The notes below the pieces were generated by a model. That model had not been told where the DNA came from and ran no database searches. It was given only the letters and a program-made list of their open reading frames with translations. 64,000 nt of DNA from a virus: positions 1-64,000 of IMG/VR virus record IMGVR_UViG_3300035034_000924; one strand, 5' to 3'. Below are positions 49,298-52,810 of the stretch, piece by piece. A program made the position numbers and the translations under genes. Numbering within the stretch: position 1 is the first letter of the stretch; the number at the start of each line of letters is the position of its first letter.

Positions 49298-52200
49298 ATG
49301 GCCAAGCTGCCTAAATTTAGAGAAGAGTTCCCTTGTCTGGCATGTCCGCTAGGTGAGCAAGGCTGCGCCAAGATCAAGGCCAGCGGTTCCCGAAGAGCCA
49401 AGATCCTAGTCGTTACTCACGGGCCTCACGACGGAAACGCTGCCCACTACAAAGAGCATATGACCAGAGACGCTCTAGCGGTGTTCAAGAGAGCCATGCA
49501 CGAGAACGGTTTTACCGATTCAGACTTCGTGTTCGTATCTTCGGTACGGTGCTACTACGACAGAGACCTCAGGCCTACGAAAGAAAAGACGCACATAGCT
49601 GAGCAGTGCCGAGAATACTTGCTACGCACCATTGACCAGATGAAGCCAGACATAATTGTACCGTTAGGTGTCGAGGCGGCTAGGTCGGTTTACGGCAAAG
49701 CAAAAAAGATAACCAAGATACGCGGGGCAGTGGAATGGGATGCCGACTACAACGCGCACATATTCCCTATGATTGACCCGCAGATGGTATCCAACTATCC
49801 ACAGAACTGGGGGACATTCAAAGCAGACGCCAGAAGCTTGCGTAGGCTGATGGACAACGGTTTCAACGAAGCAGATGTTGCTAGGCAGGGTCTGGGCGAA
49901 TACGAAATAGTCGATGACCTACAATTCCTGATTGATAAAAACCCAGAAGTATTGGTGCTCGATACGGAGACCGAGGGCAAACGTTGGTCAGAGCGAGATA
50001 AACGGTTATTGACCATTCAGCTAACTGACGAGGCGGGCAAGGGGTATATGGTCGTGTGGGACCACCCAGAAGCACCCGCCAATAGGCAGACAAAGCGTAG
50101 GCTGAGAAGACAATTCAAAGAGCTACTCGAAAGGGAAGAACTCACCGTAGTCGGGCAGAACCTGAAGTACGACGCGCTTTGGATGTATACCAGAGTCGGG
50201 GTCCGGTTCCGAATAGGTGATGACACGCTCATGCTGGCAGCAATCCTAGATGAGAATAACCTGAACAAAGACCTATCCTCACTGACAAAAATGTTTGTGC
50301 CGGAGATGGCGGGCTACGATGATCTGTTCAACAGGACGTACGACAAGTCTAGGATGCAAGACGTACCGATAGCCGAGATACTGAACTATGGTTGCGGGGA
50401 CTCGGATGCTTGCAAACGTTTGCACGAATATTTCTGGGGACAGATAGAGACAGACCCGCAACTGGTTACGCACTATGACGAAGTATCTTTGCCGGGACTG
50501 AACGCGTTCGTCTCTACTGAGATGCGGGGGCTCAAGGTTAACTTAGCGGGGCTGGATGATCTTAGGACTACCTTGGCAGAGTATGTCGATGAGCTGGAAG
50601 AGAGCCTGCTCACACAAATACCTAGAAGAATAAAGCGTGACCACCTAGAAGCGGGCAAAGAGATAAAACTATCAAGGCCTGACCTACTAAGAGACATACT
50701 GTTCCATCATCCAGCAGGGTTTAACCTAAGACCCAGAGTGTTCACCAAGACCACGGCTAAGCTAGCGCCAGAACTGCAAGTACCTTCCACCAGTAGTAAA
50801 GACCACCTACCGTTTTTCTTTGACGATTGCCCGTTCACAGAAGAGCTGGCCGAGTACCAAAAACTTAGCAGGTTGCTGGGTACAAACATTGAGAAGTTTC
50901 AAGAGAACTACATGATCGGGGATATGGTTTACCCGTCCTATCAACTGCACGTCACGGTAACGGGGCGAACATCGTGCCTCAGAGAAGATCAGTTGGTGGA
51001 TACACGCCACGGTAAGAAGCGTGCAGACAACATTGAAGTAGGGGACGAAGTATTCACACACATGGGTAGGTTCCGCCCCGTTACAAAGCTGTTCCGAAAA
51101 CCAGTTACGCCTATGGTGGATGTAAGGTTTAGTAACGGGGAAGTCTTGCATGTCACACTAGATCATATTGTCTTGCTTAACTCTGGTGAGTTTGTTACCG
51201 TTAGGTCAATCATCCAGCAAGGGATAGACTATGCCCAGTGTCAGCAAGAAGCATATGCAGGACGAAGAGCTAGTTTTGCAGGTAGCAGAAACATACCGCA
51301 CATCTATGATGACTGTGCAGGAAGTAGCGGACAGGTATCATGTGAACCACGTAACAGCGCGAGCCATGATTCGGAAGCACATATCAGACGAGGACTTCAA
51401 GAAGTTCGCGCACTACAGATATCACGACAGCAAGCTGGGGAAAAAGAACCATCAGTTTGGCAATCAGCGGGCATCAGATTGCGAGGATGGCAGGGGCTAC
51501 CTTACGAGACTAGTAGAGGGCAAGAGATACTTTGTGCATCGGATAGTATTCGCGGGGGGTATGGGCATGAAGCCTCACGAATTGCCAGAGTCGATGATTG
51601 TACATCACATAGACGGGAACCCGAAGAACAACAGTCTCGACAACCTTGCACTGACAACGCGGAGGGGGTATTCGGGTATACACGACCGATACCTGTTTCC
51701 TTCCGAAGAGTTTCAATTGAGAGCATTGACTATTCGGGAAGCTATCGAGTTTATGACTTCGAGGTAGAGGAAGATCACTCGTATCTGGCGGGTGGCGTAT
51801 TCTCCCATAACTCACAAGACCCTAATGGCCAGAACTTCCCCAAACGTGGCAGGTTCGCTAAAGCGTACCGAAAGCTCTTTGTACCGAACGAAGGTTACTT
51901 CATGCTGGAGGCTGACTTGTCTCAGGCAGAGCTGCGTATATCCGCAGACATGTCGAACGACCAAGAGATGATACGCATCTACAATAGTCCGGGCGGGGAC
52001 ATCCACAAAACAACTGCCCTGATCGTAACAGGGCTATCGGCAGAGCAGTTTGCGCAACTTGATAGGACAGAACAATCACTGGCTAGGTTTAAAGCCAAGG
52101 CCGTGAACTTCGGGTTCATCTACGGTATGGGCTGGAGAAAGTTCATCACGTACGCGAAGACCCAATACGGCGTAGAGTTTACTGACAGAGAAGCGCAGCG

Positions 52201-52810
52201 GATACGGGACCAGTTCTTCCAGAGATACCCTGCACTAGTACGATGGCACAAAGCTATGCGTGAGTATGCAAGGACGCATGGTTATGTGCGGTCTTACAGC
52301 GGGCGAGTACGCCACCTACCTATGATCTACTCGCGGGAAGAGTACATCCGAAACGAAGCTGAGAGACAGGCAATCAATAGCCCCGTTCAGGAGTTCGCCT
52401 CGTCTATCGGGGTCATGGCGCTGAGTAACATTGACCAAGATGTAAACCCTGATTACCTAGCAATTACTGGTTTCGTGCACGATGCTATCTACGCCCTTGT
52501 CCCGTACCAATACGCGGAGTGGGGAGCGAAGACGCTCAAGCATTATATGGAGACTGTAGATATCGAAGGTATATTTAACCGCAGACTCAAAGTACCTATT
52601 CTGGCGGACGTATCTATCGGTTTGAATGGTGGTGAGCAATTCGAGATGGCGGGCCTAGATCTAGATACAGAATACAACTGGGAGTCTCAGCTTGAATATG
52701 AACCGGAAGATGGCTTCCCGTTCGAGATGACAGAGCAGCTGACCCCACCAGACGATGGCTTGATAGAGCTGCCTAGGCACTTAGTAAGACCATCGCTACT
52801 AGCCCCGTGA
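49298..52810 (+). CDS. DNA polymerase, family A, with UDG-like N-terminus and intein, 1,170 aa precursor
   Basis: Domains in order: a uracil-DNA-glycosylase-like region (about 10-155, ACPLGEQGC; SSVRCYYD; IIVPLGVEAA), a DnaQ-like 3'-5' exonuclease (DTETEG, Asp222/Glu224), the polA palm and fingers split by an intein. Motif A is EADLSQAELR (Asp873), motif B KAVNFGFIYG, motif C HDA (His1061-Asp1062-Ala1063; HDE is usual). The intein (residues 560-838) sits between the two Ser of TGRTS/SQDPNGQN. After splicing the polymerase would be 891 aa. The 837-bp insert also carries a separate HNH gene in another frame. Confidence 0.85.
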   Translation: MAKLPKFREEFPCLACPLGEQGCAKIKASGSRRAKILVVTHGPHDGNAAHYKEHMTRDALAVFKRAMHENGFTDSDFVFVSSVRCYYDRDLRPTKEKTHIAEQCREYLLRTIDQMKPDIIVPLGVEAARSVYGKAKKITKIRGAVEWDADYNAHIFPMIDPQMVSNYPQNWGTFKADARSLRRLMDNGFNEADVARQGLGEYEIVDDLQFLIDKNPEVLVLDTETEGKRWSERDKRLLTIQLTDEAGKGYMVVWDHPEAPANRQTKRRLRRQFKELLEREELTVVGQNLKYDALWMYTRVGVRFRIGDDTLMLAAILDENNLNKDLSSLTKMFVPEMAGYDDLFNRTYDKSRMQDVPIAEILNYGCGDSDACKRLHEYFWGQIETDPQLVTHYDEVSLPGLNAFVSTEMRGLKVNLAGLDDLRTTLAEYVDELEESLLTQIPRRIKRDHLEAGKEIKLSRPDLLRDILFHHPAGFNLRPRVFTKTTAKLAPELQVPSTSSKDHLPFFFDDCPFTEELAEYQKLSRLLGTNIEKFQENYMIGDMVYPSYQLHVTVTGRTSCLREDQLVDTRHGKKRADNIEVGDEVFTHMGRFRPVTKLFRKPVTPMVDVRFSNGEVLHVTLDHIVLLNSGEFVTVRSIIQQGIDYAQCQQEAYAGRRASFAGSRNIPHIYDDCAGSSGQVSCEPRNSASHDSEAHIRRGLQEVRALQISRQQAGEKEPSVWQSAGIRLRGWQGLPYETSRGQEILCASDSIRGGYGHEASRIARVDDCTSHRREPEEQQSRQPCTDNAEGVFGYTRPIPVSFRRVSIESIDYSGSYRVYDFEVEEDHSYLAGGVFSHNSQDPNGQNFPKRGRFAKAYRKLFVPNEGYFMLEADLSQAELRISADMSNDQEMIRIYNSPGGDIHKTTALIVTGLSAEQFAQLDRTEQSLARFKAKAVNFGFIYGMGWRKFITYAKTQYGVEFTDREAQRIRDQFFQRYPALVRWHKAMREYARTHGYVRSYSGRVRHLPMIYSREEYIRNEAERQAINSPVQEFASSIGVMALSNIDQDVNPDYLAITGFVHDAIYALVPYQYAEWGAKTLKHYMETVDIEGIFNRRLKVPILADVSIGLNGGEQFEMAGLDLDTEYNWESQLEYEPEDGFPFEMTEQLTPPDDGLIELPRHLVRPSLLAP
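50410..50425. repeat. Dispersed palindrome site 16
   Basis: TTGCAAACGTTTGCAC, one mismatch; perfect 12-bp core; coding (CKRLH), inside the polymerase's exonuclease-domain region. Confidence 0.85.
50975..51811 (+). mobile_element. Intein in DNA polymerase with nested HNH gene
   Basis: It begins with Cys560 (block A, CLREDQLVDTRHGKKR and NIEVGDEVF), contains the TxxH block B (TLDH, residues 620-623), and ends with block F/G (YRVYDFEVEEDHSYLAGG, then HN838) before extein Ser839. All splicing blocks are intact. The stretch between blocks B and F reads as low-quality sequence in the polymerase frame but as an HNH endonuclease in the +1 frame. Confidence 0.85.
51231..51767 (+). CDS. HNH homing endonuclease nested out of frame in intein, 178 aa
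   Basis: The +1 frame inside the intein has its own ATG 51231 behind AAGGG. An N-terminal HTH (TVQEVADRYHVNHVTARAMI, residues 28-47) precedes an HNH nuclease domain: RIVFAGGMGMKPHELPESMI, VHHIDGNPKNN (His125/126, Asn133/134), DNLALTTRRGYSGIH with His151. It would cut intein-less alleles. Its stop (51765-51767) lies within the codons of intein block F, so both proteins are encoded by the same bases there. Confidence 0.85.
   Translation: MPSVSKKHMQDEELVLQVAETYRTSMMTVQEVADRYHVNHVTARAMIRKHISDEDFKKFAHYRYHDSKLGKKNHQFGNQRASDCEDGRGYLTRLVEGKRYFVHRIVFAGGMGMKPHELPESMIVHHIDGNPKNNSLDNLALTTRRGYSGIHDRYLFPSEEFQLRALTIREAIEFMTSR

Follow-up and report, generated by a model that had tools for sequence, protein, structure and literature searches.

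A phage DNA polymerase intein with a candidate homing endonuclease gene overlapping it in another frame

Can an intein and its homing endonuclease be encoded by the same DNA in two different reading frames? The question is raised by a family A DNA polymerase gene in the window analyzed here (64 kb out of an 85,398-base IMG/VR virus record), in which the original prediction placed a complete HNH protein of 178 residues in the +1 frame between the splicing blocks of an intein. The coordinates, residues, and lengths given there for the polymerase ORF, the intein blocks, and the HNH protein all proved correct on rechecking (Table 1). We read the locus as a mobile intein overlapped, in another frame, by a separate gene for its homing endonuclease, and assign this reading a probability of about 0.86.

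Table 1. Coordinates of the polymerase gene, its intein, and the overlapping HNH gene in the window
Feature	Position	Strand	Basis or remark
Family A DNA polymerase ORF with intein	49298–52810	+	UDG-like, 3'-5' exonuclease, and polymerase domains
Intein, 279 aa	50975–51811	+	Flanked by TVTGRTS and SQDPNGQNFPKRG; alignment, AlphaFold Hint fold, Foldseek to mini-inteins
Cys1 codon of intein, start of block A	50975–50977	+	Polymerase residue Cys560
Block B TxxH (Thr-Leu-Asp-His, polymerase residues 620–623)	51155–51166	+	Sequence
AAGGG, Shine-Dalgarno-like, 7 nt 5' of HNH ATG	51219–51223	+	Background P 0.26 alone
TAG shutting the +1 frame, two codons 5' of HNH ATG	51225–51227	+	Sequence
HNH endonuclease gene, 178 aa plus stop, +1 relative to polymerase frame	51231–51767	+	ORF, Pfam, AlphaFold pLDDT 81
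Intein residues 96–242 across the HNH gene, open, predicted disordered	51260–51700	+	AlphaFold pLDDT about 31–45
Helix-turn-helix part, HNH residues 26–50	51306–51380	+	Sub-threshold HTH_17 match; helices in model
HNH_3 nuclease motif, HNH residues 100–145	51528–51665	+	Pfam, E 6.7e-11
C-terminal splicing part, blocks F and G, intein residues 243–279	51701–51811	+	Profile, alignment, AlphaFold
HNH stop codon TAG within block F Val-Glu codons (GTA GAG)	51765–51767	+	Sequence
Intein His-Asn and C-extein Ser+1	51806–51814	+	Polymerase His837-Asn838/Ser839

Intein and HNH gene in the same DNA

The polymerase ORF encodes 1170 amino acids and contains no internal stop along its entire length. The elements of a class 1 intein are present, including the nucleophile Cys at position 1, the block B motif T620-L-D-H623, and the terminal His837-Asn838 followed by Ser839; the Cys and the block B His are invariant across 11 aligned relatives. 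The ORF scored above the cut-off of the intein C-terminus profile TIGR01443, and matched PF14890 (Intein_splicing) with an E value of 3e-5, under the gathering score of that family. Without the intein, the computed length of the polymerase is 891 aa. AlphaFold prediction for the intein (11 relatives) gave a pLDDT of ~90 for residues 1–80 and 251–270, and of about 31–45 for residues 101–240, and the best PDB matches of the model in Foldseek were the mini-inteins gp41-1 and MchDnaB. In the model, the residues overlapped by the HNH gene thus form a disordered insert inside a good Hint fold. The host gene is one continuous ORF, as opposed to the two host ORFs of a split intein or fractured gene, and no nuclease match was obtained in the intein frame from block B to block F. 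A close-DNA search for the window intein among named phages returned no match. The N-terminal end of the polymerase carries a uracil-DNA-glycosylase-superfamily domain (PF03167, E 3e-13; window 49298–49850), and a domain of this type was weakly detected in the polymerase of Rhodobacter phage RcKickapoo too.

The 178-aa protein of the +1 frame matched PF13392 (HNH_3) with 42.1 bits versus a cut-off of 24.8, and its residues H125, H126, N134, N138, and H151 are invariant across 11 sequences. AlphaFold modeled it with a mean pLDDT of 81; Foldseek comparison of this model with I-HmuI gave a weak match (E 0.23), and a search of the HNH sequence against the PDB found nothing useful. Its stop codon overlaps the intein codons for Val264-Glu265, so that the end of the nuclease gene lies inside block F, as had been claimed. 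The gene also has the ATG and the AAGGG site ascribed to it, the latter being, in the window alone, a Shine-Dalgarno match at background level. Shine-Dalgarno sites tend to be good in other relatives, such as L097 and L112, and some relatives (L101) have no match.

The missing clear Shine-Dalgarno site in some relatives is also what might be seen if ribosomes entered the HNH frame by programmed +1 frameshifting, so that the HNH was fused to the N-terminal half of the intein instead of being a free protein. The +1 frame is indeed open for 12–27 codons 5' of the likely start in L082, L097, and L118. In the window, however, the TAG two codons before the ATG would confine a frameshift to those two codons, the intron-encoded and free-standing homologues begin at the same part of the HTH domain, and no conserved slippery site was seen by inspection, with no search tool used. 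We therefore regard frameshifting as improbable, and favor a separate gene with an internal start.

Conservation and stop avoidance in the two frames

The closest comparison is with L009, an IMG/VR contig whose polymerase is 48% identical and carries, at the same site, an 837-nt intein with a +1 HNH. The layout of the 837 nt is identical in the two, with the HNH beginning at codon index 85 and stopping at 263 in both. The same phase at nearly the same place was found in L009 plus more than 15 independent contigs, and the +1 frame is thus not a product of a sequencing frameshift. Conservation of this frame among relatives, which the original prediction required, was also evident. Between the window and L009, amino acid identity was 58% in the HNH frame and 32% in the intein frame; across 55 pairs, mean identity was 42% in the HNH frame, 23% in the intein frame, and 24% in the third frame, and the HNH frame was better conserved than the intein frame in all 55. 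Differences at HNH codon positions 1, 2, and 3 amounted to 0.48, 0.40, and 0.61, the third position varying most. The sequence sets compared are mostly less than 60% identical.

When the intein-frame proteins of the window and L009 were held fixed, the predicted HNH identity was 36% (maximum 44%), as compared with the 58% observed. Identity in the intein frame was 32%, against 35% expected from HNH conservation alone, and extra conservation of the overlapped intein residues beyond the level forced by the HNH was accordingly rejected. Selection on the hydropathy of the intein loop left no signal in the polA cases, and a signal was seen only in L076, an intein in another host protein described below.

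These values bear on whether the +1 ORF might be a relic, with a dead nuclease and a frame kept open through recent descent. Decay does appear to be a normal stage, as the HNH is shortened or broken in L010 and L098 while the intein frame stays open. The window copy, by contrast, is full length with the conserved HNH residues, and the identity of its HNH frame to that of L009 lies far above the null, which makes a relic slightly less probable still than frameshifting, and leaves the overlapping functional gene as the preferred reading.

The absence of stops was assessed for 12 nested HNHs, the synonymous codons of each being redrawn according to the codon usage of the polymerase around it; for the window and L009, the expectation was additionally obtained by permuting their own codons. 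All 12 contain zero stops in the intein frame, where 2.5–19.5 were expected. Synonymous redraws of the window HNH gave ~10 intein-frame stops on average, and zero stops in none of 40,000 trials. Individual P values ranged from below 5e-5 up to 0.07 (for the most GC-rich copy), and the combined Fisher P of ~1e-30, which ignores the relatedness of the 12 sequences, is indicative only. As a control, eight HNH genes outside inteins carry 9–37 stops in the +1-type frame, in line with their own expectation. Since the HNH frame is conserved, the intein frame is not, and stops are absent, the intein frame over the HNH gene is therefore constrained mainly to stay open. The DNA is under strong selection to encode the HNH protein, whereas selection on the intein frame is mainly against stops.

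The genetic code may make such an arrangement easy to reach. In the +1 layout, a host-frame stop can arise only where an HNH codon ends in T. NNT can always be exchanged for its synonym NNC, so that silent changes suffice to clear the host frame of stops over any protein. In the +2 layout, the one case without a silent solution is a Met whose next codon starts with A. The ease of silent stop removal may be the reason that the arrangement evolves easily.

Relatives at the polA site, spread, and a proposed mechanism

Relatives were found by scanning for HN-S-x-x-P-N-x-Q-N, the intein end at the polA site, and by an HNH-alignment scan. A protein-pattern scan of IMG/VR with the polymerase found none, whereas the alignment-based scan did; likewise, a first HNH scan of genome contigs gave none and the scan with the 11-sequence alignment succeeded. 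The case counts are lower bounds from pattern scans with unknown sampling bias. Beyond L009, an intein with a +1 HNH occupies the same or an equivalent polA site in at least 18 phage polymerases (L082, L095, L097, L099 [partial], L101, L107, L108, L112, L116, L118, L124, L125, L126, L129, L131, L133, and L204, with L128 and L130 looking equivalent in a differently worded polymerase motif). The phase is +1 in every nested polA HNH found. The same site also holds mini-inteins without HNH (L080, L096, L111), in-frame HNH inteins (L005, L091, L094, L110), and a longer intein in L103, called LAGLIDADG-type by eye only, and it is empty in Pseudomonas phage PA_L9, Rhodobacter phage RcMenchie, and ~30 of the related contigs compared. 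RcMenchie and RcKickapoo (L005) have near-identical polymerases save for the intein of the latter at the window's site, which carries an ordinary in-frame HNH.

The RcKickapoo intein shows what an in-frame endonuclease at this site looks like, and a pair of sequencing or assembly frameshifts in the window could in principle mask one. Against this stand more than 18 independent contigs that agree in phase and layout, the zero intein-frame stops where about 10 are expected, and the splicing domain of RcKickapoo, which is of a different lineage from those of the nested inteins. A frameshift error is already refuted by the relatives with the same arrangement, and we give it almost no weight beside a true overlap.

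In a tree, the 11 complete nested HNHs lie on one side of a branch (100/99) versus six HNHs of polA introns, with the free HNH of L062 among them, and the splicing domains of nested and of in-frame HNH inteins form separate groups (100/100). Average identity was 42–44% for the HNH and the splicing domain versus 27% for the exteins; for the MAG contig L204, the values were 57% (HNH), 41% (splicing domain), and 23% (extein). As the HNH and splicing domain are more alike than the polymerases that carry them, the sequences point to horizontal movement of the intein together with its HNH across polymerases. Part of the spread was vertical, since HNH distances correlate with extein distances (Mantel r 0.54).

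Homologous HNHs are found in polA group I introns, 12–18 nt from the intein site in the clearest cases. One of these related enzymes, I-PfoP3I, was shown to be a homing enzyme that makes a nick 4 nt upstream of the site where its own intron is inserted in polA (PMC3428280). The proximity of such introns would fit a group I intron with an HNH gene misread as an intein. The polymerase frame, however, runs through the insert without a stop and includes the blocks and predicted Hint fold of an intein. A search of the insert with Rfam gave no intron match, a weak test in that it likewise missed the annotated introns of L002 and L003. A misread intron is thus highly improbable, and an intein with an overlapping gene remains the reading followed below. 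Two other junctions were seen in the course of these comparisons. In L062 (1800–2785), a polymerase fragment breaks off precisely at the intein site, directly next to a same-family HNH on the opposite strand; the junction lies in a decayed prophage-like region. In Aeromonas phage HJ05 (L006:2540–3284), a likely intron with another nuclease ORF splits polA after KAVNFG, at a different site.

We propose that one polymerase mRNA would be translated in two ways, giving a self-splicing precursor as well as a free HNH. Translation in the polymerase frame would produce the 1170-aa precursor, from which the Hint domain (intein residues 1–95 and 243–279) would excise itself to leave the 891-aa polymerase; the ~150 residues across the nuclease gene would be a disordered loop at the position where an endonuclease domain is usually accommodated in inteins. 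Initiation within the polymerase gene, at 51231, would give the free 178-aa HTH-HNH nuclease through the +1 frame. We infer that the HNH is made and cuts DNA: it would cut or nick intein-less polA near the TGRxS/SxxPN codons, repair of the cut polA would copy in the intein along with the hidden gene, and splicing would hide the insertion.

The two jobs of a mobile intein would thereby be separated. The spliced chain need only stay open and fold into a Hint domain, and the free nuclease can degenerate or diverge while the host gene stays intact. With many sequences and both possible phases available, such inteins are well suited to studying the evolution of overlapping genes and to testing how selfish elements maintain two functional frames.

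Known systems and hidden nucleases in other host genes

In split inteins (fractured genes), a free-standing endonuclease stands between the halves. The nuclease of the window would likewise be a separate protein, but the host gene of a split intein is broken in two, whereas here there is one continuous ORF. Conventional inteins, such as the dCTP deaminase intein of cyanophage CL131 with its in-frame HNH (PMC6293099), also bring a Hint domain and an HNH together, in RcKickapoo even at the same site; their nuclease is part of the intein polypeptide, in contrast to the separate overlapping gene and other splicing-domain lineage of the window. The polA group I introns (I-PfoP3I of Pf-WMP3, PMC3428280; PS3; PhAPEC7) share homologous HTH-HNH enzymes and nearly the same polA sequence, but are removed at the RNA level, and their nuclease gene overlaps no frame that must stay open.

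The closest parallel is the ShiLan domain, a hidden out-of-frame HNH in mycobacteriophage methylases (PMC11855218), described also from Applejack (PMC12613952). As in the window, the HNH is encoded out of frame within a phage gene that itself remains open, and its distribution is disjunct and mobile. Unlike the window polymerase, ShiLan has a methylase host, a zinc-finger HNH, and a GTG start without a Shine-Dalgarno site, and with neither intein nor intron its insert is thought to remain in the methylase. In the window, intein blocks and an intein fold surround the HNH, and the intein should remove the insert, which extends the hidden-HNH idea to an element with an evident route of self-removal. 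The literature searched for an out-of-frame endonuclease in a true intein gave only the ShiLan papers; a preprint on actinobacteriophage inteins of 'non-canonical architecture', cited in PMC11855218, may bear on this. Out-of-frame HNHs in phage genes are thus already known, and we found no report, in the literature searched, of their combination with a working-looking intein, which appears to be new. The original prediction called the arrangement unusual, which agrees with the literature found; in sequence data it does not, as the arrangement is recurrent, including in the other phase and in other host proteins.

HNH scans identified at least 30 inteins with a +2 HNH, most of which terminate in a terminase-like ...N|CDAxRY; for about ten of them, the intein blocks were identified by eye. 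Identity in this set was 35% in the HNH frame and 19% in the host frame, with the HNH higher in 435 of 435 pairs. Three named phages, Tetrasphaera phage TJE1 (L278:1083–3269), Acinetobacter phage Highwayman (L279:999–3281), and Rhodobacteraceae phage LS06 (L281:1026–3074), hide an unannotated +2 zinc-finger HNH in an intein of the annotated terminase large subunit. In L076 (IMGVR_UViG_3300031576_000447, 485–1666), the intein lies in a MuF-like protein and hides a +1 ORF (747–1595) for 282 aa containing a zinc finger and a PD-(D/E)XK-like nuclease; L076 is an independent case with another nuclease family.

Taken together with the polA cases, we think it quite probable that inteins with an overlapping out-of-frame endonuclease are a third general architecture of mobile inteins, next to in-frame fusions and split inteins, with at least three origins (the polA +1 HNH, the terminase-like +2 zinc-finger HNH, and the MuF-like +1 zinc-finger/PD-(D/E)XK-like nuclease), and are common in phages. 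On this account, they were overlooked because annotation keeps only the long host ORF; standard annotation missed homing endonucleases in terminases and polymerases, including those of the named phages TJE1 and Highwayman.

Several neighboring arrangements were also encountered. In Acinetobacter phage BP10 (L282), a related HNH is encoded by a free gene ahead of terS, and in L156 (2914–3507), a +1 double-HNH ORF lies near the N-terminal end of an intein, outside blocks B–F, in a DnaE-like protein. L160 (2899–3321) and L172 have a +2 HNH in adenine-methylase-like ORFs without an intein motif, and look like ShiLan-type elements of other phages.
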